A stretch of 64,000 nt of DNA from Phycisphaerales bacterium. Its GTDB lineage: Bacteria > Planctomycetota > Phycisphaerae > Phycisphaerales > UBA1924. Position numbers and translations under genes: made by a program. This document shows positions 28,898 to 51,657 of the stretch, piece after piece. The notes beneath the pieces were generated by a model. The model worked only from the letters and a program-made list of their open reading frames with translations, did not search any database and had not been told where the DNA came from. The DNA lies in assembly GCA_029213305.1 (NCBI GenBank), contig JARGPA010000014.1, positions 1-64,000 on the forward strand, in the 5' to 3' direction. Positions within the stretch are counted from its first letter, which is position 1, and each line of letters opens with the position of its first letter.

Positions 28898-29614
28898 ATG
28901 AAAAACTCACTTCTAGCCTCAACAATGTTGATCGCATGCGTTGCAAGTGCATCAACAGCTGATGTCACTACAACCTTTGACAATGGAACCGAAGGATGGT
29001 CAATCTCAGGTAGAGATACCATCGATCAAACCGGTGGTAATGACGGCGCGAACATGCACGGTAACTTAATCGACGTGTTCGGCGCAGACATACGCAACAA
29101 CACAAACGGTGATTTTCTCGGAGATCTTTCTCGTTACGGTAGTTCAATAGAACTAAGCATTGACATCAAGACAAACTCGCTCGATTTCTTCGGACAACAG
29201 GTCCCGCGCGAGTTGGTTGTTGAGCTCCGCGATTACGACAACGATAACGGATACCCATGGACTTCCGTCTGGTTCTCCCTCGGAGCAATTGGTGTTGATT
29301 TTAACAGCGAATGGACAACTTACTCCGTTACGATCGATGACACTGCATCACTCGTTCTCCCCGGCGGGTGGGGCGGAACCGGTGATGAAGATCCGAATAC
29401 CTTCGAACCAATTCTCCCAGTCGGACGCACCTTCGATAGTGTGATATCAAGCGTTGATGAAATTGCATTTACAACGTTCGTTCCAGGATTCTTCTTTGGT
29501 TTCACAAACATGGATCTGCAAGTAGACAACATATCCATCAGTACGGTACCAGCTCCTTCATCCCTTGCGCTTATTGGGCTCGGCGGAATCGTTGGCACAA
29601 GAAGAAGACGATAA
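28898..29614 (+). CDS. Secreted PEP-CTERM protein with laminin-B-like domain
   Basis: 238 residues. A signal peptide (MKNSLLASTMLIACVASAS) is followed by a beta domain starting TTFDNGTEGWSISG, a pattern of laminin-B/carbohydrate-binding-like folds that ends near NMDLQVDNISI. The tail VPAPSSLALIGLGGI plus GTRRRR is the Phycisphaerae version of the PEP-CTERM sorting signal read by an exosortase. It is probably anchored or released at the cell surface in contact with exopolysaccharide. AGAGAGAG ribosome site before the ATG; strong terminator after it. Confidence 0.9.
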   Translation: MKNSLLASTMLIACVASASTADVTTTFDNGTEGWSISGRDTIDQTGGNDGANMHGNLIDVFGADIRNNTNGDFLGDLSRYGSSIELSIDIKTNSLDFFGQQVPRELVVELRDYDNDNGYPWTSVWFSLGAIGVDFNSEWTTYSVTIDDTASLVLPGGWGGTGDEDPNTFEPILPVGRTFDSVISSVDEIAFTTFVPGFFFGFTNMDLQVDNISISTVPAPSSLALIGLGGIVGTRRRR

Positions 29615-33852: not shown

Positions 33853-34497
33853 TTACTCCGCTGAGATAATCTTATGGCGAACCAACGCTTCAACCAGCTC
33901 ATTGGCGGCTTGCTCAGCGCTTAAAGTTCCAGTATCGACAACAATCTCAGGGTTCTTGGGTTCTTGGTATGGATCGTCGATCCCGGTGAATCCTTTGATT
34001 TCCCCTGCCCTTGCCTTCTTATACAGCCCTTTCGGATCGCGTTGTTCACAGATTTCGATCGGAGTGTTGATAAAGACTTCAAGAAATTTAAGCCCTGCAT
34101 CATCGTGGATCTTGCGGACTTGATCGCGATCTCGTTGATATGGAGAGATAAAACTCGAGATCGTAATGACTCCAGAGTCTGCAAAGAGCTTCGCGACCTC
34201 TCCAATTCGGCGAATATTTTCCTTCCGATCGTCTGCTCCGAACCCTAGATTCGCGTTGAGTCCGTGTCTCACATTGTCTCCATCGAGTCGATATGCGAGC
34301 ACACCGCGTGAATTCAACGCTTTTTCGAGTGCGACACCAACTGTGGACTTTCCTGATCCTGAAAGCCCTGTCAGCCAGAGTGTGCATCCGTCATGTCCGA
34401 GTACTTTTGCTCGATCTGCCCTGTTCACTTCGCCGTCGTGCCAAACAATGTTCGTGGATTGGCCACTCGATGATGGATTGGGTTGTTTTGTGCTCAA
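33853..34497 (-). CDS. cysC: Adenylylsulfate kinase
   Basis: 214 residues from a TTG at 34497 with a GGAG ribosome site 6 nt upstream; the frame also opens at a TTG at 34557 without such a site. Features are [14 protein letters not shown], the Walker A loop [43 protein letters not shown] and [19 protein letters not shown]. All are diagnostic for APS kinase, which phosphorylates adenylylsulfate to PAPS. Here it is a separate gene, not fused to CysN. It diverges from cysD-cysN. Confidence 0.96.
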
Positions 34498-34652
34498 TTC
34501 AGACTCCGATGCATGAAGGAATGCGTAAAGATGGACAATATCGGTCCTATGCTCCAAGGGCAGCTATTCTCTCTGCGAGAATGCTCAATTCTGGACTATA
34601 CTTCGGTCAATTGCTTTCGAAAATCCCGGCTTATCGCTTGGGAAGCAAGAAA

Positions 34653-34664
34653 CATCGGCCGATG
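34653..34664. promoter_or_regulatory. 12-bp perfect palindrome between cysC and cysD
   Basis: CATCGGCCGATG at 34653-34664 lies in the 246-bp divergent region, 80 nt before the cysD start and next to the AT-rich AATAAAATATAGAT that could hold a -10 box. It is a candidate operator controlling sulfate activation genes. Confidence 0.35.
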
Positions 34665-34743
34665 AATAAAATATAGATATCGTCGAACATGTGGGTGATT
34701 GACACCCTAGACACTTTCGTTCACTTTGCGGAGAATTTCGGGT

Positions 34744-35673
34744 ATGTCCCAAATCGCCGACTCACAAGCTCACTACCGGCTAACGCACCTCAAAGCCCTC
34801 GAAGCAGAGGCTATACACATCATGCGCGAGGTCGCAGCCCAGTTCGAGAAACCCGCACTGATGTTCTCAGGCGGCAAAGACTCGATCGTCATGGTTAAGC
34901 TCGCTGAAAAAGCGTTCCGCCCGGCGAAATTCCCGTTCCCACTCCTTCACATCGACACTGGGCATAACTTCCCAGAAGCGCTCGCGTTTCGCGATCATCT
35001 CGTCGATAGCATCGGAGAACGACTCATAATCCACAAGGTCCAAGACCTAATCGATAAAGGCATGGCCACGGAAGATCCCGGGCCGTTCCCGTCGAGGAAC
35101 CGAGCACAGATCCCAACATTGCTCGACGCGATTGAAACATATCAGTTCGATGCACTCTTTGGAGGCGCACGGCGCGACGAAGAGAAAGCACGCGCCAAAG
35201 AACGAATCTTCTCGTTCCGCGATGACTTTGGGCAATGGGATCCAAAGAACCAACGACCTGAGCTCTGGAATCTATACAACGGCCGAAGCCGAATGGGAGA
35301 GAACATCCGTGTCTTCCCCATTTCAAACTGGACAGAAATGGATGTCTGGCAATACATCATGCTCGAAGAAATAGAGATCCCAGATCTCTACTTCTCGCAC
35401 GAACGCGAAGTAGTTGAGCGCCGAGGACAACTCGTCCCAGTAGGTGACGCACCCTTCGGACCAAGAGATGGTGAAGAAGTTGTCAAACGAACTGTTCGAT
35501 TCCGTACCGTCGGCGATATGAGCTGTACCGCCGCGACTGATTCACCTGCTGCAAATCTCGAAGAAATCGTCGGGGAAGTCGCAGCCGCAAGAGCATCCGA
35601 ACGCGGCGCTCGCATGGACGACAAGAACAGTGAAGCCGCGATGGAAGATCGCAAGAAGGAAGGGTACTTCTAG
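34744..35673 (+). CDS. cysD: Sulfate adenylyltransferase subunit 2
   Basis: 309 residues from the ATG at 34744, which has a GGAG site upstream. The PP-loop motif MFSGGKDSIVMVKLA binds ATP. LLHIDTGHNFPEALAFRD, FGGARRDEEKARAKER and SNWTEMDVWQYI are hallmarks of CysD. With CysN it forms adenylylsulfate from ATP and sulfate, driven by GTP hydrolysis. It is followed after 3 nt by cysN. Confidence 0.97.
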   Translation: MSQIADSQAHYRLTHLKALEAEAIHIMREVAAQFEKPALMFSGGKDSIVMVKLAEKAFRPAKFPFPLLHIDTGHNFPEALAFRDHLVDSIGERLIIHKVQDLIDKGMATEDPGPFPSRNRAQIPTLLDAIETYQFDALFGGARRDEEKARAKERIFSFRDDFGQWDPKNQRPELWNLYNGRSRMGENIRVFPISNWTEMDVWQYIMLEEIEIPDLYFSHEREVVERRGQLVPVGDAPFGPRDGEEVVKRTVRFRTVGDMSCTAATDSPAANLEEIVGEVAAARASERGARMDDKNSEAAMEDRKKEGYF

Positions 35674-35676
35674 GAC

Positions 35677-37026
35677 ATGAGCACCAACACGCAACCCAAA
35701 TCAGGTACCGATTTCTCGACAGATCCGAACACGAATATGGGCATGGATTTTTCCACAGACGCATATCTCGATATGGATTTGCTTCGATTCTTGACATGTG
35801 GCTCAGTTGATGACGGCAAATCAACACTCATTGGGCGCTTGCTGTACGATTCAAAGTCAATCTTCGAAGATCAGCTTGAAGCTGCTGAAACCGCGTCGCT
35901 CTCTCGCGGCGATCAACGAATGGATCTCGCACTACTCACAGATGGACTTCGCGCCGAACGTGAGCAGGGGATTACCATTGATGTTGCGTATCGCTACTTC
36001 GCGACCCCGAAGCGAAAGTTCATCATTGCTGATTGTCCAGGCCATGTTCAGTACACACGCAACATGGTAACCGGTGCGTCAACAGCAAACCTCGCGTTGA
36101 TCTTGATCGACGCACGCCACGGAGTGATCGAGCAGACGCGTCGACATTCATTCATCACTTCACTTTTGCGAATTCCGCATTTGGTTGTGTGTGTGAACAA
36201 AATGGATCTCGCAGATTGGTCACAAGAAACATACGACAAGATCCGTGAAGACTTTGAAGAGTTCGCAGCGCGGTTCGAAATTACTGATATCACTTTCATT
36301 CCGATGTCTGCACTTACCGGCGACAATGTTGTGAACCGATCCGAGAACATGGATTGGTACCAAGGCCCGTCATTACTACATCATCTTGAAAATGTACACA
36401 TCGCAGGCGATCGCGACATGATCGATCCTCGTTTCCCAGTACAGTGGGTTGTTCGTCCCCAGGGCGATGAGCATCACGACTATCGCGGGTACGGCGGCCA
36501 AGTCGCATCAGGAGTATTCCAGGTTGGTGATGAAGTTGTTGCACTCCCATCGGGAATGGAATCAAAGATCAAATCGATCGATATCGGAGGCGACTCTCAG
36601 CAGTTTGCTTCGCCTCCTCAGAGTGTGTCGATTCAGCTTGAAGATGATATTGACATCTCTCGCGGCGACATGCTCTGTCGACCAAATAACCAACCCACCT
36701 CGGGTCAAGATATCGATGCGATGGTTGTATGGATGACGGACACACCAATGCAAGTTGGGAAGAAGTACACCATCAGACACACTTCGAATGAAGCGCGATG
36801 CATCGTTAAGAACTTAAACTACCGTCTTGATATCGAAACACTTCATCGAGTAGAAGAAGCATCAGATCTCAAACTCAACGAGATCGGAAGAATTTCAATC
36901 CGAACAACAAAGCCTTTGTTCTATGATCCGTATCGCCAATGTCGAGTTACTGGAAGTTTCATCATCGTTGACGAGCAAACCAACAACACTGTTGGTGCAG
37001 CGATGATCATCGGCGAAACAAACTAA
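35677..37026 (+). CDS. cysN: Sulfate adenylyltransferase subunit 1 (GTPase)
   Basis: 449 residues. GTPase motifs are GSVDDGKSTLIGRLLYDS (G1), EQGITIDVAYRYF (G2), DCPGHVQYTRNMVTG (G3) and NKMDLAD (G4), followed by EF-Tu-like beta domains. It couples GTP hydrolysis to CysD-catalysed adenylylsulfate synthesis. The protein stops after the beta domains, so no APS kinase is fused; that is the separate cysC. The N-terminus has an extra polar stretch of about 28 residues. A strong terminator follows. Confidence 0.97.
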   Translation: MSTNTQPKSGTDFSTDPNTNMGMDFSTDAYLDMDLLRFLTCGSVDDGKSTLIGRLLYDSKSIFEDQLEAAETASLSRGDQRMDLALLTDGLRAEREQGITIDVAYRYFATPKRKFIIADCPGHVQYTRNMVTGASTANLALILIDARHGVIEQTRRHSFITSLLRIPHLVVCVNKMDLADWSQETYDKIREDFEEFAARFEITDITFIPMSALTGDNVVNRSENMDWYQGPSLLHHLENVHIAGDRDMIDPRFPVQWVVRPQGDEHHDYRGYGGQVASGVFQVGDEVVALPSGMESKIKSIDIGGDSQQFASPPQSVSIQLEDDIDISRGDMLCRPNNQPTSGQDIDAMVVWMTDTPMQVGKKYTIRHTSNEARCIVKNLNYRLDIETLHRVEEASDLKLNEIGRISIRTTKPLFYDPYRQCRVTGSFIIVDEQTNNTVGAAMIIGETN

Positions 37027-37111: not shown

Positions 37112-37795
37112 TCAGCGACGACGACGGAACCCCATCGCACCACCAAGACCCAACAGCGCCAATGAACCTGGTGCAGGGACGGTGAACTGAATGTTATCAA
37201 ACGCCATTGAACCGCCGACATTGAAGACGACTCGATCGAAATCGCCAGCAACTTCAAACTCTGAGATCATGTTGATCGAGTTGTTGCCGTAGATTGCGCC
37301 GTTGTCGTATGATCCGCTTGCTTCGAACTCACCGAAACCGATTGACTCGATGAGTGCACCGTTCAAGTAGAACGAAACAAGCGAATGCTCAAGGGTGTCT
37401 GATTCAACATCTACAACTGTGAAACCAAAGCTGCGAACGGTGAAATCGAAATCAAACTGAAGCTCACCCGCTGGACGGCCGCCTTCGTCATCCGGATCGC
37501 CGTTATCATTCTCTTGAATGATCAAAACATTTCCGAGTTCTGTGTTCAGATCAGTATTACCCATCGACCATGGACCTTCGAGATCTGGATCGCTTGTTGA
37601 GCTCAGGCCGGTATCAAAGATCGCGGCTAGATCGAATGGTTGGTTCAAGTTCATTGCTGAAATGTGAACTCCCATACCTGCGTACTGTTCTGCGACGATT
37701 TCGCCGTGAACGAGCCCTGAGAAGTCGATTTGCTCAGATGCATTTGCAACTGAAACAATACCGGCTGCCAGCGCGATTGCTGTCGTGTATTTCAT
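37112..37795 (-). CDS. Secreted PEP-CTERM protein
   Basis: 227 residues from the ATG at 37795, preceded by an AGAGAGAGAA ribosome site; an upstream in-frame start at 37849 is unlikely. A signal peptide (MKYTTAIALAAGIVSVANAS) leads into a beta-rich domain (FDFTVRSFGFTVVDVE ... GDFDRVVFNVGGSMAFDNI), a pattern seen in PEP-CTERM proteins of unknown function. The tail VPAPGSLALLGLGGA plus RRRR is nearly the same as in the protein at 28898-29614, so both should be processed by the same exosortase, whose gene is not in the window. Confidence 0.9.
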   Translation of the reverse strand: MKYTTAIALAAGIVSVANASEQIDFSGLVHGEIVAEQYAGMGVHISAMNLNQPFDLAAIFDTGLSSTSDPDLEGPWSMGNTDLNTELGNVLIIQENDNGDPDDEGGRPAGELQFDFDFTVRSFGFTVVDVESDTLEHSLVSFYLNGALIESIGFGEFEASGSYDNGAIYGNNSINMISEFEVAGDFDRVVFNVGGSMAFDNIQFTVPAPGSLALLGLGGAMGFRRRR

Positions 37796-38211
37796 TTGTT
37801 CTCTCTCTTGTAACTCTCTAAAACTAAGGACGTCCCTCATCACACCCACATGTCCCCTGGGCGTGATTCGACGAATAATTTAGCATGTAGCCCATTCATC
37901 TCAAGAGCACAATTTGAAAAAACCACCGTTTTCAGGGGTTTTTGGCCAACTAGTGTTGAAATGGTTCCAATTCCATAGTATTAGGGCTGGAAGAGCTCTG
38001 AAATCTTTCTTTATCGGACCTGTCGCACCGTTTGTTGTCCATCAATTGTCTGATATTGCTCTCAACAACTCCTCATTTCAGACACAGATCCGCGTGTGCT
38101 CAGTATTCATTAATGCACAAATGGAACGCAATTTCTATTGGTAAAAACTCCTTGAACTAACCCTTCTTCAACATTCCAAAACATCTTCACTTTGGTGCAT
38201 ACGCTTGAGTT
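37796..38211. other. Gene-poor intergenic region (416 nt)
   Basis: This gap holds the promoter and leader of the PEP-CTERM gene on the minus strand and the upstream region of the MBL-fold gene on the plus strand. A 76-residue open frame (37914-38144) has no ribosome site or family signature, so no gene is called. Nothing else convincing is seen. Confidence 0.6.
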
Positions 38212-39025: not shown

Positions 39026-40525
39026 ATGGCCATGCACCCGCAACAACATAAAAAGCTCTACGAAGTCTGCACAAAGATCTATCAAGCGATAGAGCAAGGA
39101 AAGACCGCGCCTGCAATTAAAAAACTCGATGAGCTTAATGCGAAGTTCCCGAACCAACCCATGATTCTTTCATTGATTGGAAGAGTAAATGGGAAAATGG
39201 GTCGCCATAAAGAATCTATTGATGGGTATGGACAAGCAGTAAAAGCTGATCCAAAGAATCCAGAGTCTCGGTTCGATTATGCACTCGCTCTCCAAAAGGG
39301 CGGCGAGTATGAACAATCTCTCGAAGAGTATGAAAGAACCTTGTATTACGCTCCAAATCATTTTCTCGCATTGCGACACAAATGCTCTGTTCTTACAGAT
39401 CTTGATCGAAACGACGAAGCGCTAGACATTTTAAATAAGCTCAAAGCTTCGATTAAGGGAAGAAAAACCACCCCTGGACAAAGACTCGCCGTCGCCGTCT
39501 CACAAGCTCGACTTGCACCCAAAGTTTGCGACGCTCAAGAATCGATCGAAGAAATCCAAAGCGCCATGATCGAAAAAGATGATGACATTGGTGTTCGCGT
39601 CGCAGGGTATTGGCAAATGGGGCGACTCTTTGATCATCTCAAAGAATACGACAAAGCATTTGAATCATACAAGCAATGTAAAGAAATTAAAAAAGACAAA
39701 TGGGACCCGGATGAACATTCACAACGAGTTGATCAGTTGATTAACTGTTGGTCAACTGATGCAAATATCCCATTTTCCGACATAGATGGATCAAGACTAA
39801 TTTTCATCGTTGGAATGATGCGCTCAGGCACTTCCCTCACTGAACAAATGATTTCTCAAGTCCCGTCAGTTACTCCCGGCGGAGAGATGAACGCGATCTC
39901 ACGACAAGTCTCTCGTGTTGATCAAACAACCATGGCCCACGCAAGGCCGTACCCTCTGACACAACGGGTTTACACACAATCAACCATAAACACAATGGCA
40001 AAGAACGCGATGGTTATGTTTAATGAGATCGCCAAAGAGGGTTATCTCACTGATAAACAGCCGTACAACTATCCGTATGTACCATTAATTTCACACATGT
40101 TCCCCGGCTGTAAAATCATTCATTGTGTTCGAAACCCATTAGATTGTTTGTTATCTAACTACACACAAGCTTTTTCTCGACCTCACATGCAAACACATGA
40201 CATGTATTGGCTCGGTCGTTTCTTTCGAGATTACGAGCGCCTCATGAAACATTGGCACACACTTCCTGAAGTTGACATGATTGATCTTCAATACGAAGAG
40301 CTTGTACAAAATCCTGAATTCGAATCAAAGCGTGTCATGGAGTTTCTCGAAATTCCATGGAATGAAGACATCTTGAACTTCCATAAATCTAAAAGAACTG
40401 TATCAACTGCGTCGCGTGATCAGGTCCGTCAACCTGTTTATACAAGCTCAGTTCAGAAGTACAAGCGCTACGAGAAGCATCTCGATGAACTCAAGCGTGG
40501 CTTGGGTATGCTCGATACTGATTAA
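39026..40525 (+). CDS. TPR-repeat sulfotransferase
   Basis: 499 residues. Tetratricopeptide repeats fill about residues 1-240 (for example KMGRHKESIDGYGQAVKADP and KGGEYEQSLEEYERTLYYAP). The sulfotransferase domain follows with LIFIVGMMRSGTSLTEQMI as the PAPS 5'-loop, IIHCVRNPLDCLLSNYTQAF as the 3'-phosphate site, and VDMIDLQYEELVQNP. TPR-sulfotransferases are abundant in marine planctomycetes and proteobacteria; their substrates are mostly unknown. This is a second consumer of PAPS in the window. Confidence 0.93.
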   Translation: MAMHPQQHKKLYEVCTKIYQAIEQGKTAPAIKKLDELNAKFPNQPMILSLIGRVNGKMGRHKESIDGYGQAVKADPKNPESRFDYALALQKGGEYEQSLEEYERTLYYAPNHFLALRHKCSVLTDLDRNDEALDILNKLKASIKGRKTTPGQRLAVAVSQARLAPKVCDAQESIEEIQSAMIEKDDDIGVRVAGYWQMGRLFDHLKEYDKAFESYKQCKEIKKDKWDPDEHSQRVDQLINCWSTDANIPFSDIDGSRLIFIVGMMRSGTSLTEQMISQVPSVTPGGEMNAISRQVSRVDQTTMAHARPYPLTQRVYTQSTINTMAKNAMVMFNEIAKEGYLTDKQPYNYPYVPLISHMFPGCKIIHCVRNPLDCLLSNYTQAFSRPHMQTHDMYWLGRFFRDYERLMKHWHTLPEVDMIDLQYEELVQNPEFESKRVMEFLEIPWNEDILNFHKSKRTVSTASRDQVRQPVYTSSVQKYKRYEKHLDELKRGLGMLDTD

Positions 40526-42483: not shown

Positions 42484-43629
42484 CTAGTAACTATTGCACT
42501 TTCGAACCAGCTGGATATCTGCAAAGTCAATGCTTGCAAGGATCGTAGATATCCGCTGGGCGCTATCCCCATTTCCATAAGGATGAGATCCTCTGACCAT
42601 CTCTGAACTGGTTATCGAACTAAACGCACTTCGTATAGATTGAACATCCTCGTCGGCGTGTCGTGTCCATCCTTCACATCGTTCGCGTCCAGATTGACGA
42701 TTCCCGATATCAACACTCGGGCAACCAATCGCGGCTGCTTCGATCAACCCTGCGGATGAGTTTCCAACAAGCGCCCCTGTCGGCGCTATGCGCTTAAGCA
42801 ATCCAACGAACTGATCTCGAGGCATCCCGGGTCGCACTTGAACATCGATCGGCGCAGACTCAATCGCGTCCATAATCCCACGTCGTCCAGGATCAATGTT
42901 TGGATGCAAAACCAATACACGTTTGTTGTTCATTGCTTCAAGGACAGTGTTCATCGCTTCTTGCTCTTGTGTGTCATCTCTTCCGATCGGATGCATTAGC
43001 ACAACACACTCAGGAGAGCCAAGATCTGCGAACGCAGCATCACCCATCGAAGGAACTTCCGAGAGTCCATCAATCGCAGACGACCCAACAACATGGACAC
43101 TCTCTGGATCTTCACCCATCTTGATAATGCGGTCGCCGCTTGTTTGTGTTGCTGGAAAATGGATGTGTGCTAGCTTTGTGATCGCGTGGCGCATTGCTTC
43201 GTCTGCGACCCCTTCGGCGCGATCTCCGCCATGGATGTGCGCGAGTGGATATCCACCGATGCTCGCTGCAGACGCCGCGGCGAATGCTTCGATCCGATCT
43301 CCGAGCACTACAACCACATCAGGATCATTCATCTCCAACGAGCGTCCAAATCGAGTAATCCCTTTTCCGAGTGATTCGACATCAGCGAGTCTTCCAACCT
43401 TTCCTGCAGTTTGCATCGGGATAGTGTCTGCGATTCCAAACTCCGCTTTTACTTCGCGAAATGTAACCGCCGGCTGAACAAGATGCGATCCCGCGACAAC
43501 AACTCGCAACTCGCAGTTTTCTTGCTCATGGATCGCGTACATAACAGGCCGAAGGAGCCCGAACTCGGCGCGAGTTCCTGTGACCACCATGATCTTCTTC
43601 AAGTCGTTATTCGTTTGATCACTCAACAC
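42484..43629 (-). CDS. neuC: UDP-N-acetylglucosamine 2-epimerase (hydrolysing), NeuC/LegG family
   Basis: 381 residues. MVVTGTRAEFGLLRPVMYAI and LAHIHGGDRAEGVADEAMRHA are typical of the hydrolysing branch that gives N-acetylmannosamine (or a diacetyl-6-deoxymannose analogue) and UDP. LVGNSSAGLIEAAAIGCPSV is the nucleotide site. The start may be GTG 43629 or TTG 43626; the latter makes a TTGA overlap with the neuB stop. It is the last gene of the nonulosonic acid operon. Sialic versus legionaminic substrate cannot be separated from sequence alone. Confidence 0.92.
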   Translation of the reverse strand: MLSDQTNNDLKKIMVVTGTRAEFGLLRPVMYAIHEQENCELRVVVAGSHLVQPAVTFREVKAEFGIADTIPMQTAGKVGRLADVESLGKGITRFGRSLEMNDPDVVVVLGDRIEAFAAASAASIGGYPLAHIHGGDRAEGVADEAMRHAITKLAHIHFPATQTSGDRIIKMGEDPESVHVVGSSAIDGLSEVPSMGDAAFADLGSPECVVLMHPIGRDDTQEQEAMNTVLEAMNNKRVLVLHPNIDPGRRGIMDAIESAPIDVQVRPGMPRDQFVGLLKRIAPTGALVGNSSAGLIEAAAIGCPSVDIGNRQSGRERCEGWTRHADEDVQSIRSAFSSITSSEMVRGSHPYGNGDSAQRISTILASIDFADIQLVRKCNSY

Positions 43630-44792
43630 AAATCCTCTCGCACAATCGGAACATCCGCCTCGATTGCTCGCGAGGATCGTTGTCCAACGACTGTATCAAT
43701 CTCAAACGCCAATATCCCAGTGCCAGGGCGCTTGATGGTGAGCATCTCGCGTGTGATTGTTGTATTAGGCTTAATCTCGCAAGCACTGACCACAGATTGA
43801 CGCGAAACCTCGCGCACATCGCGTTCGCAATCAAGCACTCGTTTTTCAACTAATACTTTGCCCGCGAGGAAAATGTTATCCGCTCCTACAACCGGATACG
43901 CCTCCGAGTAGAGATCCCTAGGTATGGATTCAAGCAATGACATATCTGAATTTACAAAGTTGGACTGGGCAACTGTGTCGACTAGTCGCCGAAAATATTC
44001 GCGTCCAACTACCGCAAAACGAGACAGTTCTAAATACTCCCGAAGCTGCATCGTAAGTAGGGATGCTTCATGATCCGGTCCGTGACGATTACGATCGTCA
44101 GTTATGTGCTTTTCAAGCAAACACGCACCGGCACACACGGCCGAGTTGCCGGTTCGATGTGATCGCGAATGATCGCTATAGCCGGTCGGCAAGTCTGTTC
44201 GTTCAGCTATTGCACGAACACCACCCAGAGCCAACTCGGGAGCCGGATAACAACTCACACACTGCAACACCGCCAACCGATCCTTCGCATCATCGAGCCA
44301 CTCAACTGCACGCACAACCTCATCAAGCTCGCTCGCACCAGTGCTCACAATAATCGGTTTGCCCGTCGCCATCAACGCTTCAAGCAATGGACGATTCACA
44401 ATGTCCGGACTCGCCGTCTTATACGCGTCCCACTCGAGGGTCTCCGCGATCTCAACGAGTTCCATACTAAATACCGTCACGATCGCATGGATTCCTCGTT
44501 CGTGAGCGCGTTCAACTACTAATGACATTTCGTCGATCGTGAGTTCGAGTCGCCGCAGCATCTCAATCGGATCGGTTTCTCCTGCATTTTTCTGATACGC
44601 CGCGAGTTTGGACGCTTTACTCATCAATCGATCAGTTTCAAAGAACTGGAGTTTCACCGCATCCGCGCCTGCGTCCGCAGCTGCGTCCGTGAGTGATAGG
44701 GCACGCGCCACCTCGCCGTCGTGATTCACTCCAATCTCCGCGATAATATAAGGGGGTTGATCTAACCCGATCTTGCGATCACCGATCTGCAT
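43623..44792 (-). CDS. neuB: N-acetylneuraminate/nonulosonate synthase with SAF domain
   Basis: 389 residues from the ATG at 44792. The PEP-condensing barrel has YIIAEIGVNHDGEVARAL, ADAVKLQFFETDRLMS, TGASELDEVV and GYSDHSRSHRTGNSAVCAGA, with EKHITDDRN for the metal/PEP site. A C-terminal SAF (antifreeze-like) domain follows (CEIKPNTTITREMLTIKRPG). It condenses PEP with N-acetylmannosamine or a related sugar. It overlaps both neighbours, so the three genes are tightly coupled. Confidence 0.94.
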   Translation of the reverse strand: MQIGDRKIGLDQPPYIIAEIGVNHDGEVARALSLTDAAADAGADAVKLQFFETDRLMSKASKLAAYQKNAGETDPIEMLRRLELTIDEMSLVVERAHERGIHAIVTVFSMELVEIAETLEWDAYKTASPDIVNRPLLEALMATGKPIIVSTGASELDEVVRAVEWLDDAKDRLAVLQCVSCYPAPELALGGVRAIAERTDLPTGYSDHSRSHRTGNSAVCAGACLLEKHITDDRNRHGPDHEASLLTMQLREYLELSRFAVVGREYFRRLVDTVAQSNFVNSDMSLLESIPRDLYSEAYPVVGADNIFLAGKVLVEKRVLDCERDVREVSRQSVVSACEIKPNTTITREMLTIKRPGTGILAFEIDTVVGQRSSRAIEADVPIVREDLC

Positions 44793-45522
44793 GCACAACT
44801 CGCTCTCTCATCTGTTCATTCAAGATCGTTTCAGCAACAATCTGATCGATCCGCGAGTCGATATCAATCACTTCGCCTTCACGAGTGATGATCCCACGTC
44901 GATCGTTCCCAAGAAAACAGTGAGGCCCACTCGGCGCATCAACTCGACACATCAACGCGTCAGGAGTAAGAGCGACTACGCCCCCATCAGGGATCAATGC
45001 AGAAGGGAGATCTTGTCTGCGGAAACAGTTGTGATACAACACATCCCCTTCCCAAGGTTGCACCTCACCCGATTCATCAACACGCACTGTCCACCACGGA
45101 TGGTGCTTCCCAACTTGTGTATAACTCTGAACCGAATCACACTTGGAATCGCACAACATCGATACCGCATCGTCGATAAGAGAATCTGGACGCACGGGGA
45201 CATTTGCATACAAAATCACAATCGGAACATCGGGGGATCCAATTGATTCAAACGCATGCCTCGCCGCATTATCAATCGTTGCAGTATCATGAGCAAGCTC
45301 CTCTGGACGATCAATCACTGTGCACCCCAGATTTTGTGCGCCATTCTTTACTTGCTCATCATCTGAAGAAACAACTACTTGTCTAATAGAGTTTGATGAC
45401 AGAGCGAGTTCAATTGTCCATTGTGCGCAAGGTTTCCCAGCAAGCAACATCGAGTTCTTTCCAGGGAGCCCCTTCGAACCTGCACGCGCTAAAACAATTG
45501 CAATCGCATTATCAGTATTCAT
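44779..45522 (-). CDS. neuA: Acylneuraminate/nonulosonate cytidylyltransferase
   Basis: 247 residues. AIVLARAGSKGLPGKNSMLL is the CTP-binding signature, followed by VVVSSDDEQVKNGAQ, RPEELAHDTATI and ILYANVPVRPDSLIDDAV. It activates the nonulosonic acid to its CMP form, the donor used by glycosyltransferases such as Maf proteins. It lies 11 nt after the Maf fusion gene and overlaps neuB by 14 nt. Confidence 0.93.
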   Translation of the reverse strand: MNTDNAIAIVLARAGSKGLPGKNSMLLAGKPCAQWTIELALSSNSIRQVVVSSDDEQVKNGAQNLGCTVIDRPEELAHDTATIDNAARHAFESIGSPDVPIVILYANVPVRPDSLIDDAVSMLCDSKCDSVQSYTQVGKHHPWWTVRVDESGEVQPWEGDVLYHNCFRRQDLPSALIPDGGVVALTPDALMCRVDAPSGPHCFLGNDRRGIITREGEVIDIDSRIDQIVAETILNEQMRERVVHADR

Positions 45523-45533
45523 CGAGTTCTCAC

Positions 45534-48500
45534 TTACGCTGCGTGATCTTCAAGAACTGATGAGTTTCTTGATTTAACTTCAACCCTTGAAGATCTTTGC
45601 TTACTGCACATTCGTTGATAGGCTTGCTCGATTCCCTCACGGAATGCATTGATCGGAGAGTTTTCTCCTCCAATAAGTCGTCCTATTCGATCGACGATCA
45701 TCCCATCGCAACGCACATACATCGTTGATCGATTGATCTGATCTTGACGATCCCGTGGATTAGGCAACGGCTTAATCCTCTGATCTGATATCCGTTGAGG
45801 TAACGAATCAATCACAGCGCTCCCACAGAGCATTAACCATTTGTCATAGAACGATTCAACCTGCTCATACACAGCGTCACACTTCGTGATTCGCGGCACA
45901 AACCAGAGTCGGTTGTTGATGTCTGCACGCTTCGCATCAAAGATAGATTGAATCCGCTCATACAAATCATCAAACCGATCAAGGCTTGTTAGTTTTGAAT
46001 ACGCCTCTCGATCCTCCGAGAGCACATCAACCGACAAAATGTCAAGCCCAGACTCAATCATGGCCCTTGCATCCGCACCTTGGCGCAAGAGGTCTGTCCG
46101 CATTTCAACGCACGCGACCCCGTCCTCCTTTGCTAACTGCACAAAGCTCATTGCTTGTGAGTGCATTAGTGGATCGCCTACTCCATCAAACACAATCGCA
46201 GTGTCTTCGCGTAGTTGTCCGATGTCATGCATGAAGGAATGCGCATCAGCAATCGAAAGTACAGGTCGTTCAATCGGTTCGATTGAGTTGCGTTTCCAGA
46301 TACCCCAATCGCCGCTCGCGAGTCTTCCTGTACATGTTTCAAGTACCACTGTTCGAGGACAGATACGATTTAACTTCCGATGAGCAATGCAATAAGCGCG
46401 GACACAGATTAACGAATCCGCTTGATGTGTATTATGATCTGAATTGAGATTATCGTACGCATCCTTCATCGCAGCACAACGAATTGTTGAGTCCGCAATC
46501 ACTCGAACCCCTGCGTCTCTTAACTCATGATCAATCTCAATACAAACACCTTTTCCGATTGGATCAAACTGAGGTGCAATAGGAACATACCCAACCAATG
46601 TCCCTAGCGTCGCGAAGTGGTTTGCTTGCTCATGCGCATTGATCATTGAGTCCGCAAGCGCTTGAACAGTACCTCGATCAACAACAAGCGTTCCAATACC
46701 TGGAACTGCTTGGGAGAACGCGATTCGCTTTTCAGAATCTTGATGTCGATATCGCGATACCGTTTGATCTACGAGCTTTGGATCTACCATTGCCCAATCA
46801 GCTCCGACGATTGCGCACGCATCGATTCCGTGTTCATCAAACACTTTTGACATCAATACTGGATGGAACAACTCGTCATACACACTCAACATCCCGATTG
46901 AGCCGCGCCAACATTCGCTCGATTGCATTCGTGCGCTACCAACCCGTTGAGCGTGTTGTCCAAAAGTGTTCGGATCTACTTGAACGATGCTCATTTTTTT
47001 GCGTGGAGTAAACGATCCCAATACTTGCTTTATTGCATCGGGATCAGGGGTAACAATCGTAATTGCATCGAGTTGTTCTGAATGGTCAAGTCTTGCAATT
47101 GTGAGTTGCAGAACATTCATTCCGCCTGTGATGATGGATCTCAAGTCCCGCTTCGTACCCAATCCGCCGATATTGGGATCTGCGATGATTACACCATGGA
47201 TGCATTGTTGGGTTTTCGTTTCGATTTGAAGTTCTCTTGTTTCGGTGGATCCGACTCCGTCTTCTTCGCCTCGCTCATTGGTTTGTTTTTCAACCAAACC
47301 CAGAAACGCATCGCGACCTGCGCACAACTGTTCAACTACTGCATCTGCTGCGTCTCGGGTCCATTCTACATTTTGAATATCTCGTTCGATCTGCATTCTC
47401 TGTCGTTCAATTGCGCTTGCTCCTGGATTCAACTCAATTGTTCGATCCTGGCGCATTCGATTCAAAACACCAACCTGATTTACGGATTCGCAGAGTTTAA
47501 ACGCAACTCCCATTTTCACTACACGATCTCGAATCCCTTGAACCTCATGAATCAGTTCGTTCACTCGATTTTGGTTGCTGTGATTCTGAATCATCTTTTG
47601 CAACAACTCAACAGATTGATTACTCAAGTACGAAATGAGCTTTGCATCTTCGATGATCGAATTAATCCGTTCATGAATCTTTTTCTTACGGTTTTCGTCA
47701 TCAAATCGATAACTTTCCGTGTCTACCAACTCGATCTTTGAGCTTGAACCATAGCTTTGGATCGCGTCTTTTAGAGTCATGGTTATTGTGTGACTCTTGA
47801 GCACTCCGCCTTCAGTTGCGTCGATCACTTTGAGACCTGCTTCTTCATCGCTTTGGAAACCGGATTCAAACTGTGCAAGGTAGGTTGCCATCTGTTCGTC
47901 GAGATAGATATCTTTGTTATGGACATCTTTCTTTTTGCGTAGTAATCCGCGCATTCGAACTATCCGTTGCCATTCCATCATCTCAAGTGTGTTGTGTGCG
48001 TTGAGTTCACCTGACCAAACTTGATGGATCGCAGCTCCTGCTGAATAATACTGCCCGTCAGTAAATCCGAGGTCTTGGCCGATGAAAATAACGGGATCAC
48101 AACCGAGATATCGAGCAAAGTAATAACACAAATGCGCGACTGTGCCGCCCATAGTTAGTGTCCCGAGATCACGCTCTAGATCTTCTCCGAGTACATCATC
48201 AAGCAGCTCATCTGTTACACAAAGCACCTCACCAGGGAACGCGTCGAGAATCGCAGGGTTTGCCTTTGCTTCAACAACGAGTCTTATTCCTTCAACATCA
48301 CTCTCAGTGAGTCCTTCATAGAATCGCTTTGAAATTTCGTGATAATCAAGGGCTGCAACAAAGTCAGGCTTGATCCCTTTCTTGAGCATCTGTTTGAGCA
48401 CTGTTTGTACCGCAATAACAACAACAGACTCACGCAATGTTGAATCTGTGAGCAGATCAAGATTTCGCGACAAGCTGGGTCCGGCCGATACAACAACCGC

Positions 48501-49277
48501 GGGTTTTCCAACACAGGTATCTTTTAACGGTGCCACCCCTGCAGTTGAAGAATAATGATCAAGGTTCATCAACGCATTTCGAAAACTTGTTCGCGCGTTT
48601 GCAAGAGTTGTGATTACATGTGTGCGTGTCGCGCTCAGAATATCGCTAAAAGTTCGACCGAACTCAGCGCTCTCTTTCCCAAGTCGTTTCTGACTCGGCG
48701 GATGATTCACGATTTCTGCTCCGAGACCAACAACTGCTTCGATCCCTTGAAATATTTTACTCAGAGTTGCAGAGTCGTTGGATTGTGTGAGAATGAACAC
48801 TCTTCGAGTTTCGAACATCGTAGAGTAATCAACACGAGAGAGTACAGATCGTAGCAACTCAATGTCAGGCTCAAAGCAAACAACAATCCCACAGTTACCC
48901 AGTCGCTCAAGCAATGTGCCGCAATGGTAACCAATGCCAAATCCACTAATCGCAACACAAGCGATTTTGCTTGGATCGTATCGTTCTGCGAATCGCTTTG
49001 CTTCTTGCATCGGTTTCCGCTTCGAGGCCATCGCAATTCCATCGAGTTCAAGCCCGAGTATTCCTTCATCGGTACTTATAAACTCCGCGAGTCGATTCTC
49101 TGTTGCATGAGCAACTTGATTCGCCGCCAACGGACTACAGATTGCGAGTGCCTGCAGATTCTTTCTCAAGATTGAGTCATCTGCGCCAAAATCACTGTTC
49201 GATGCAACAACCTTACTGTTGTCTGCGTTCTTCTTTGTATCTTCAACAAAGAGTGCGTTGAGTTGCGAATAGTCCAT
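45534..49277 (-). CDS. Fusion of a Maf-type glycosyltransferase, an SpsF-like nucleotidyltransferase and a degenerate radical-SAM/SPASM domain
   Basis: 1247 residues from the ATG at 49277, which has a perfect GGAG ribosome site 6 nt upstream (GTG at 49295 is an alternative). Residues about 15-600 match motility accessory factors (DUF115/MptE-like): GKPAVVVSAGPSLSRNLDLL, PDFVAALDYHEISKRFYEG, VIFIGQDLGFTDGQYY and a helical end. Residues about 690-925 resemble SpsF cytidylyltransferases (VLQLTIARLDH, ITIVTPDPDAIKQVLG). Residues about 970-1240 follow a radical-SAM plus SPASM pattern (IVFDGVGDPLMHSQAMSFV; ESGLDILSVDVLSEDREAY). The CxxxCxxC site keeps only its first Cys and the SPASM cysteines are lost. 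First gene of the neu operon; probable flagellin glycosylation. Confidence 0.82.
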   Translation of the reverse strand: MDYSQLNALFVEDTKKNADNSKVVASNSDFGADDSILRKNLQALAICSPLAANQVAHATENRLAEFISTDEGILGLELDGIAMASKRKPMQEAKRFAERYDPSKIACVAISGFGIGYHCGTLLERLGNCGIVVCFEPDIELLRSVLSRVDYSTMFETRRVFILTQSNDSATLSKIFQGIEAVVGLGAEIVNHPPSQKRLGKESAEFGRTFSDILSATRTHVITTLANARTSFRNALMNLDHYSSTAGVAPLKDTCVGKPAVVVSAGPSLSRNLDLLTDSTLRESVVVIAVQTVLKQMLKKGIKPDFVAALDYHEISKRFYEGLTESDVEGIRLVVEAKANPAILDAFPGEVLCVTDELLDDVLGEDLERDLGTLTMGGTVAHLCYYFARYLGCDPVIFIGQDLGFTDGQYYSAGAAIHQVWSGELNAHNTLEMMEWQRIVRMRGLLRKKKDVHNKDIYLDEQMATYLAQFESGFQSDEEAGLKVIDATEGGVLKSHTITMTLKDAIQSYGSSSKIELVDTESYRFDDENRKKKIHERINSIIEDAKLISYLSNQSVELLQKMIQNHSNQNRVNELIHEVQGIRDRVVKMGVAFKLCESVNQVGVLNRMRQDRTIELNPGASAIERQRMQIERDIQNVEWTRDAADAVVEQLCAGRDAFLGLVEKQTNERGEEDGVGSTETRELQIETKTQQCIHGVIIADPNIGGLGTKRDLRSIITGGMNVLQLTIARLDHSEQLDAITIVTPDPDAIKQVLGSFTPRKKMSIVQVDPNTFGQHAQRVGSARMQSSECWRGSIGMLSVYDELFHPVLMSKVFDEHGIDACAIVGADWAMVDPKLVDQTVSRYRHQDSEKRIAFSQAVPGIGTLVVDRGTVQALADSMINAHEQANHFATLGTLVGYVPIAPQFDPIGKGVCIEIDHELRDAGVRVIADSTIRCAAMKDAYDNLNSDHNTHQADSLICVRAYCIAHRKLNRICPRTVVLETCTGRLASGDWGIWKRNSIEPIERPVLSIADAHSFMHDIGQLREDTAIVFDGVGDPLMHSQAMSFVQLAKEDGVACVEMRTDLLRQGADARAMIESGLDILSVDVLSEDREAYSKLTSLDRFDDLYERIQSIFDAKRADINNRLWFVPRITKCDAVYEQVESFYDKWLMLCGSAVIDSLPQRISDQRIKPLPNPRDRQDQINRSTMYVRCDGMIVDRIGRLIGGENSPINAFREGIEQAYQRMCSKQRSSRVEVKSRNSSVLEDHAA

Positions 49278-49461
49278 CAGGTTCTCCAAGCTCACGAACA
49301 GTTTGTTTGTCGATAAGCCTCATCTTCAATTTCCCAGTGCGCAACGAATAAGTCGATTGCGAACCCCCTTTGTTATCGGCCTTTAATACACCAAGACTCC
49401 ATCTTCAAGGAACCAAATCCCCATTTGAACTCGAATAGAACCCCAAAGGAATATCATCATC

Positions 49462-51255: not shown

Positions 51256-51330
51256 TTGGAACGGTGGTTTCAACAACTATATGTAGTGGTTGCCCAGGTG
51301 GTGGGCACAGATCATGGGCACCAAAGGTGC
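51256..51330 (+). promoter_or_regulatory. Hairpin-rich leader before flgM
   Basis: Three short stems precede the ribosome site: TTGGAAC-ggtg-GTTTCAA (51256-51273, one G-U), GCCCA-ggtgg-TGGGC (51292-51306) and GCACC-aaa-GGTGC (51318-51330). The last ends about 10 nt before the AGAGG site of the gene at 51352. A structured leader is likely; no known riboswitch class fits. Confidence 0.35.
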
Positions 51331-51351
51331 AGAAGAAAAGAGGCTTACTCT

Positions 51352-51657
51352 ATGAGTGATATTTCTCCAATCAATACATCAATCGCGAATCGCGTGGGAA
51401 GGATCTCAACAGATCCAACGATCGCATCAAACAGAAGCGCAGATGAAGTCCGAGGCCGTGGTGGGGCTCGGCCGAATGATCGCGTTGAGTTCTCGCGTGT
51501 TTCACAGTATCTCAATCAACTCCAGTCGGAACCAGCTCCAAGAACAGATCTCATCAATCGTGTTCGCGACGAGATCCAATCAGGGACTTATCTCACTGAT
51601 GATAAACTCTCCGCGGCGGCTGATGAACTACTCGATGATCTCAACTTCGAACTCTAA
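51352..51657 (+). CDS. flgM: Anti-sigma-28 factor FlgM-like protein
   Basis: 101 residues from the ATG at 51352, 8 nt after an AGAGG ribosome site; the frame extends upstream without support. The N-terminus is polar and disordered-looking. The C-terminal half reads RTDLINRVRDEIQSGTYLTD then LSAAADELLDDLNFEL, the sigma-binding helix pattern of FlgM. FlgM holds sigma-28 (FliA) inactive until the hook is complete. It shows that the organism is flagellated and supports a flagellin target for the Maf fusion. A terminator follows. Confidence 0.85.
   Translation: MSDISPINTSIANRVGRISTDPTIASNRSADEVRGRGGARPNDRVEFSRVSQYLNQLQSEPAPRTDLINRVRDEIQSGTYLTDDKLSAAADELLDDLNFEL

Follow-up and report, generated by a model that had tools for sequence, protein, structure and literature searches.

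The subject of this report is one gene in a 64,000-nucleotide stretch of planctomycete DNA (the window: Phycisphaerales bacterium, GenBank assembly GCA_029213305.1, contig JARGPA010000014.1, positions 1 to 64,000). On the minus strand it encodes a Maf glycosyltransferase that continues in the same frame into an SpsF-like nucleotidyltransferase fold and a degenerate radical S-adenosylmethionine (SAM)/SPASM fold; we refer to these C-terminal folds together as the module. The frame runs from an ATG at 49277 to a stop codon that ends at 45534, and an in-frame GTG at 49295 offers an alternative start that would lengthen the protein to 1253 residues. An earlier note on this DNA had described a single 1247-residue frame with a Maf region, a cytidylyltransferase-like middle and a radical-SAM-like end, and this description is upheld by the frame itself, by PF01973, by AlphaFold prediction with Foldseek searches and by relatives in 57 of 61 genomes. 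Pfam recognized the central MptE-like domain of Maf (PF01973, residues 234-407) with an E value of 1.8e-37 and 129.2 bits, over the cut-off of 34.6, and the PseD flagellin-modification model NF050051 matched residues 111-620 with 81 bits, below the model's cut-off. Rfam, searched at gathering scores, gave no match in the window. The domains of the protein and the adjoining genes are listed in Table 1.

Table 1. Features of the fusion gene and of the neighbouring Neu-type genes (positions in the window)
Feature	Position	Strand	Basis
Whole fusion protein (Maf, SpsF-like and pseudo-radical-SAM/SPASM parts)	45534..49277	(-)	1247 residues; frame, Pfam, relatives
Maf N-terminal domain, about residues 48-230	48588..49136	(-)	Weak PF20157 match (below cut-off); AlphaFold and Foldseek match to 5mu5
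Maf central MptE-like PF01973 domain, residues 234-407	48057..48578	(-)	Pfam
Maf C-terminal helical region, about residues 408-668	47274..48056	(-)	DSSP of the model; NF050051 match below cut-off
Disordered linker, about residues 669-687	47217..47273	(-)	pLDDT <50; low identity within the genus
SpsF-like nucleotidyltransferase fold, about residues 691-965	46383..47207	(-)	Foldseek match to 6oew; profile match; Pfam matches of relatives
GGLGTKR at the SpsF loop site, residues 704-710, catalytic Arg and Lys gone	47148..47168	(-)	Alignment
Pseudo-radical-SAM barrel, about residues 966-1150	45828..46382	(-)	Pfam, NCBIfam, Foldseek
CTGRLASG, residues 982-989, region of the lost CxxxCxxC	46311..46334	(-)	Alignment
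SPASM/twitch remnant without its four cysteines, about residues 1151-1225	45603..45827	(-)	Alignment, profile match
NeuA/PseF-like CMP-nonulosonate cytidylyltransferase, GSKGLPGK loop intact	44779..45522	(-)	Pfam CTP_transf_3 over cut-off; NCBIfam strong, below cut-off
NeuB/PseI-like nonulosonate synthase with SAF domain	43623..44798	(-)	Pfam NeuB over cut-off; NCBIfam strong, below cut-off
NeuC-like UDP-GlcNAc 2-epimerase	42484..43629	(-)	NCBIfam over cut-off; Pfam Epimerase_2 over cut-off

Structure prediction of the C-terminal half had been set beforehand as a test of the earlier description. An AlphaFold model of residues 684-1247, computed from the window protein and 51 relatives, reached a predicted local distance difference test score (pLDDT) of 92.3 and a predicted template modelling score (pTM) of 0.92. 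Foldseek returned as its best match in the Protein Data Bank a cytidylyltransferase (6oew, TM-score 0.70 by target), followed by radical-SAM enzymes that included CteB, SuiB, SkfB, BlsE, MoaA and viperin. In the model, the presence of both the nucleotidyltransferase and the radical-SAM/SPASM fold was thus confirmed. A second model, covering residues 48-1247 (pLDDT 89.4), had the Maf structure 5mu5 as its top match (E 1e-18) and showed a disordered linker at about residues 669-687. Profile searches of a 23-member alignment, composed of the window's C-terminal part and 22 separate relatives, matched Radical_SAM and SPASM in 18 members each, NTP_transf_3 in eight and CTP_transf_3 in two. Within the genus, the module is conserved as strongly as the outer Maf domains: across 17 relatives, mean identity was 50, 49 and 49% for the C-terminal parts and 48 and 50% for the outer domains, with 70% for the PF01973 core and approximately 15% for the linker region (661-690).

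The radical-SAM half was aligned across 75 proteins, 49 of them fused to Maf and 26 separate; the latter comprise 24 copies of the type described here and two ordinary radical-SAM proteins (L098 and L103). The CxxxCxxC motif was found in none of the 49 fused and none of the 24 separate copies, and within the alignment only the two ordinary proteins kept it. The earlier note had named homologues with intact radical-SAM cysteines as grounds for abandoning its reading, and these 73 copies of this type contain none. Intact motifs occurred only in L098, L103 and a third protein outside the alignment (L102), all three of which have neither a match to the SpsF half nor a Maf gene in the stretch examined. 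One detail of the note needs correction: the cysteine of CTGRLASG, taken there as the first of the motif, sits at alignment column 49, three columns before it, and the motif positions themselves (columns 52, 59 and 62) are R, G and G in the window. The first of these positions is an arginine in 41 of the 49 fused proteins and in 11 of the 24 separate ones.

The second set of cysteines has a different history. Separate partner proteins align with BtrN (4m7s, 4m7t) through four SPASM/twitch cysteine columns (169, 187, 232 and 235 of the 4m7s chain), which we take to hold the auxiliary cluster of BtrN; they differ from it in their missing CxxxCxxC. At least three of the four cysteines are present in 22 of 24 separate copies, the exceptions being L035 and L040. 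The window protein has none, as the earlier note had stated. Among the 48 fused copies that cover this region (L024 was excluded, as a contig end cuts the gene before it), 40 have none, seven have a single one and one, L100, has all four. We rejected the idea that fusion inevitably entails loss of the twitch cysteines, because fused L100 keeps all four and separate L035 and L040 have lost them. Since the separate copies already lack CxxxCxxC, loss of this motif most simply preceded fusion, and catalysis was probably gone by then, as judged from the alignment.

The SpsF half was compared across 69 copies (48 fused and 21 separate). It has the same fold as the SpsF-type protein 6oew and, in the second half, several of the same conserved residues; it differs from 6oew in the phosphate loop, GSTRLPGK: the Arg of GSTR is missing from all copies, the Lys of PGK is retained in two of 69, and the Arg of QAR is likewise found in none. 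The window has Gly and Asp at the Arg and Lys positions, in agreement with the altered loop that the earlier note had pointed out. At the Lys position, Asp is present in 25 of 48 fused copies and Arg in eight of 21 separate ones. Elsewhere, RG is retained in 47 of 48 fused and 20 of 21 separate copies, the R of YRLT in 47 and in all 21, and the D of TID in 45 and 18; the D of GDCP is kept in 46 fused copies but in only 10 of the 21 separate ones. By these alignments, the SpsF half has lost its phosphate-loop side chains and has nearly always kept RG and the cited residues of YRLT and TID. Radical-SAM catalysis and, by sequence, nucleotidyltransferase catalysis have very probably been lost. The earlier note had the C-terminal parts becoming non-catalytic as modules fixed to the transferase; the loss of catalysis is supported, and its placement during fusion is not, given that none of the 24 separate copies has the radical-SAM motif.

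The 61 genomes mentioned above range from the window's own genome up to the level of the order, and the fusion protein was matched in 57 of them, the window's included. Matches in so many genomes rule out chance or a frame error. Two order-level families (f5 and f6) have Maf and its partner as separate genes in all ten matched genomes, with Maf first wherever both lie on one contig; in one genome of this set (G041) they lie on two contigs. In two genomes (G049 and G060), Maf and partner share one frame with a single stop codon between them. A genome scan gave 52 named loci, mostly from metagenome-assembled genomes titled Phycisphaerales, Phycisphaeraceae, Phycisphaerae or Planctomycetota, with two titled 'bacterium'; they partly overlap the 61-genome set and are no independent sample. 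Maf and module are in one frame in 47 of these loci, interrupted within Maf in one (L133), separate in one (L159) and cut by the ends of the available sequence in three (L142, L148 and L151). A sample of 294 genomes from the phylum contributed 20 stretches, of which one was filler. In the remaining 19, the Maf gene adjoins the partner gene in 10, is fused to it in two and is not found in the stretch examined in seven, three of which are the ordinary radical-SAM proteins L098, L102 and L103. The earlier note had asked whether the parts also occur as neighbouring separate genes; they do so elsewhere in the phylum, in the form of Maf and one two-domain gene. One partner gene (L092:3316-8362) has Maf genes on both flanks. 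A plasmid search with the separate partner L090 matched 27 records, none over 80% of its length and most annotated as radical-SAM proteins.

We built a quick maximum-likelihood tree from 64 rows of the alignment, after 11 of the 75 (eight near relatives and three partial copies) had been dropped. In this tree, 37 of the fused rows group together in a single supported clade (98) and fused L100 lies on a separate branch, which implies at least two changes between the fused and separate states. The tree itself is compatible with fusion or fission; we favour two fusions, given the wider distribution of the separate copies. The gene on the separate branch (L100:4604-8110, genome G238) is a Maf-partner fusion with four twitch cysteines, and the same genome also has a separate pair (L106).

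Across the 294 phylum genomes, PF01973 was found in 63, in 57 of them over its cut-off. The module was counted in at least 31 genomes. It was matched as a single stretch in 24 of them and as two stretches in three (G045, G330 and G322); in the other four (G062, G094, G154 and G230) the match was to the SpsF half only, in frames that also carry PF01973. This count, taken from the matches listed, is a lower bound, as at most four candidates were scored per genome in nearly all genomes, and a further SpsF-half match in a PF01973 genome (G308) was left out. All 31 genomes are among the 63 with PF01973 (Fisher p 1.2e-24, related species being treated as independent). Five of the 24 separate copies (L040, L095, L097, L099 and L108) have no Maf gene in the stretch examined, and their genomes match PF01973.

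The fusion gene heads a run on the minus strand in which NeuA-, NeuB- and NeuC-like genes follow with small gaps or overlaps, and these three are a nonulosonic-acid synthesis set. Outside the module's own frame, nearby Neu genes were seen at 47 of the 52 named, 23 of the 27 order-level and six of the 19 phylum loci. NeuA-, NeuB- and NeuC-like genes were found in 47, 41 and 31 of the named loci and in 23, 18 and 20 of the order-level loci, respectively. The window's genome has five flagellin_N matches; among the matches listed, three are on contigs 31 and 6 and none is on the window's own contig (contig 11). Flagellin was found in 55 of the 61 genomes, among them the window's own. It occurred together with a match to the fusion protein, fused or split, in 54 genomes and alone in one (G025); three genomes had the protein alone and three had neither (p 0.002). 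The three with the protein alone are G008 (56% complete) and G042 and G054 (97-98% complete), and a strict tie of the module to flagellin was rejected on account of the latter two, which are nearly complete yet have no flagellin. Their genes (L041:2607-5498 and L042:2738-5233) encode fusions of 964 and 832 residues with a reduced MptE-like part.

Several other genes of the window were noted. A FlgM-like anti-sigma factor (51256-51657; PF04316 just below cut-off) is encoded on the opposite strand, approximately 2 kb past the fusion gene's start, and FlgM-like matches near the fusion were also seen in 22 of the 52 named loci. Beyond the NeuC gene is a TPR and sulfotransferase protein (39026-40525), and genes at 33853-37026 resemble, by eye, activated-sulphate genes (adenylylsulfate kinase, CysD and CysN). 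Two secreted proteins (28898-29614 and 37112-37849) end in what we judged by eye to be a PEP-CTERM-like tail.

Maf and spiro-SPASM-like proteins are known kinds of protein, and the earlier note had known of no description of the arrangement seen here. For the C-terminal part, the nearest named architecture is the NCBIfam model TIGR04321 (spiro-SPASM), which is named for spirochaetes and is presumably restricted to them. Among the models listed, it was the sole one to match all 23 aligned members, and it shares with them the two-part build: the best separate planctomycete gene covers model positions 75-506 of 510. The likeness ends at the score, in that the cut-off of 250 bits was unreached (best 158.4 in the 294 phylum genomes) and the window, at 25.2, is far below it; with the window's C-terminal half alone, TIGR04311 and TIGR04317 score slightly above TIGR04321. 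Replacing cysteines by alanine in a score probe of TIGR04321 cost 19 to 23 bits for the SPASM cysteines and 9.3 bits for CxxxCxxC (approximately 18 for CxxxCxxC in TIGR04317). This indirect probe suggests that the model itself keeps the SPASM cysteines strongly and CxxxCxxC only partly. A radical-SAM-like family named pseudo-SAM/SPASM (TIGR04347) shows a similar drop of 9 to 10 bits, but is a distinct family that five of the 23 members match. In the open-licence literature, to which our search was confined, we found no paper for 'spiro-SPASM', none that brings together SpsF, flagellin, glycosylation and radical SAM, and none on Maf and flagellin glycosylation in Planctomycetes; the term pseudoenzyme did not occur in the papers retrieved on radical-SAM pseudoenzymes. 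The available part of one article on spirochaetes (PMC3438082) contains nothing on SpsF or radical SAM, and in that of another (PMC4403809) one Treponema SPASM protein appears as a table line. The arrangement was thus not found described in this literature, although its C-terminal architecture does have an NCBI model.

Considering these observations together, we find it reasonably probable that the fusion protein is a Maf glycosyltransferase with a built-in, non-catalytic accessory module that acts in the transfer of nonulosonic acid, supplied by NeuC, NeuB and NeuA, to flagellin. In this scheme, the three Neu enzymes would make the sugar, and Maf would most likely move it from its cytidine monophosphate (CMP) form onto flagellin. 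The window's Maf resembles that of Magnetospirillum (5mu5) in its PF01973 core, its overall fold and its place beside nonulosonic-acid synthesis genes. It differs in length: the 5mu5 chain has 666 residues, whereas the fusion has approximately 560 more after Maf. According to the accessible text of PMC11339370, which calls the roles of the outer domains unclear, the solved Maf has three domains. The module would descend from a separate gene, often adjoining Maf elsewhere in the phylum, whose product joins two degenerate parts, an SpsF-type cytidylyltransferase and a radical-SAM/twitch protein. It would dock on Maf and, while catalysing nothing itself, hold the substrate of Maf; presentation of flagellin or assistance in binding the CMP-sugar is the likeliest way. 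Scaffolding or sugar recognition, which the earlier note had proposed, may be its function. After fusion, a covalent tether and a tight interface could make an iron-sulphur cluster dispensable. Overall, the module looks like a conserved accessory part and not a sequencing accident.

Several observations weigh against this interpretation. The pTM of 0.82 for the longer model suggests, short of proving, that the module occupies a defined place on Maf, since pTM is no interface score. In searches with the window protein alone, Radical_SAM matched residues 1023-1133 with an E value of 0.0099, below the Pfam cut-off, and no nucleotidyltransferase Pfam family matched the middle part. At the family level, the module drifts faster than Maf, with identities of 32, 32 and 30% against 38, 63 and 44%. 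Across the phylum, 32 of the 63 PF01973 genomes have no module among the matches listed, with at most four candidates scored per genome in nearly all genomes, and six of the 63 are below the PF01973 cut-off. The fusions of G042 and G054 are short and diverged; both genomes are devoid of flagellin, and the 8.3-8.5 kb examined around each fusion contain no Neu genes. These fusions may have turned to another use. Finally, the SpsF half may have a residual binding or catalytic role, since RG and the conserved residues of YRLT and TID persist.

The alternative that fares best is a narrower form of the same interpretation, in which the module is an adaptor on the acceptor side: it would capture flagellin or the flagellin chaperone and bring it to Maf, and would have no contact with the sugar donor. 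In peptide-modifying enzymes, the radical-SAM/SPASM fold handles peptide substrates, and such enzymes are among the Foldseek matches of the module. The available text of PMC4065374 reports that Aeromonas Maf1 binds flagellin directly and that glycosylation comes before chaperone binding, which is consistent with a step of this kind. According to the accessible part of PMC11339370, however, another Maf modifies flagellin on co-expression in Escherichia coli, and no partner protein is mentioned there. We regard the adaptor in this strict form as somewhat unlikely.

A less probable alternative, which we consider unlikely, is that only the radical-SAM part is dead and that the SpsF-like domain still works as a nucleotide-binding or nucleotidyltransferase domain that makes the CMP-sugar or hands it to Maf. 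Its fold matches cytidylyltransferases, and the retained residues listed above, including the Asp of GDCP in fused copies, would fit such a role. Against this, the loop Arg is absent from all 69 copies and the Lys from 67, mostly with Asp in its place in the fused ones, and the Asp of GDCP is present in fewer than half of the separate copies. Moreover, the next gene encodes a NeuA-like enzyme with an intact loop, so a second synthetase is unneeded.

The single stop codon between Maf and partner in G049 and G060 indicates that fusion is easily reached, and the C-terminal part could in principle be evolutionary debris from read-through of a lost stop codon. Debris would decay, yet within the genus the module is conserved like the outer Maf domains and has many invariant residues, and the 37 fused rows form one supported clade; we consider this explanation very improbable. 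The joining of three unrelated genes by misassembly or a missed frameshift, in favour of which nothing was found, was rejected as having next to no likelihood, because the same order in one frame is repeated in dozens of assemblies; a chance frame was rejected likewise.

Returning to the accessory-module interpretation, we tentatively put forward a broader proposal, which we hold with less confidence than the reading of the window's protein. Planctomycete Maf would have a dedicated pseudoenzyme partner, built from a dead CMP-sugar synthetase and a dead radical-SAM protein and, in most separate copies, holding the cysteines for one iron-sulphur cluster; this partner would be an essential second subunit of flagellin glycosylation that in Phycisphaerales has been fused to Maf and has lost the cluster. 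The proposal predicts that removal of the module impairs flagellin glycosylation. Here, co-occurrence, gene neighbourhood and two or more transitions between the separate and the fused state link a module derived from radical-SAM proteins to one transferase family. If the proposal is true, the path by which an enzyme became first an iron-sulphur pseudoenzyme and then a plain protein module would be traceable in living species, which hold the steps of catalytic loss and in which one can therefore ask what a dead radical-SAM scaffold does, with and then without its iron-sulphur cluster.

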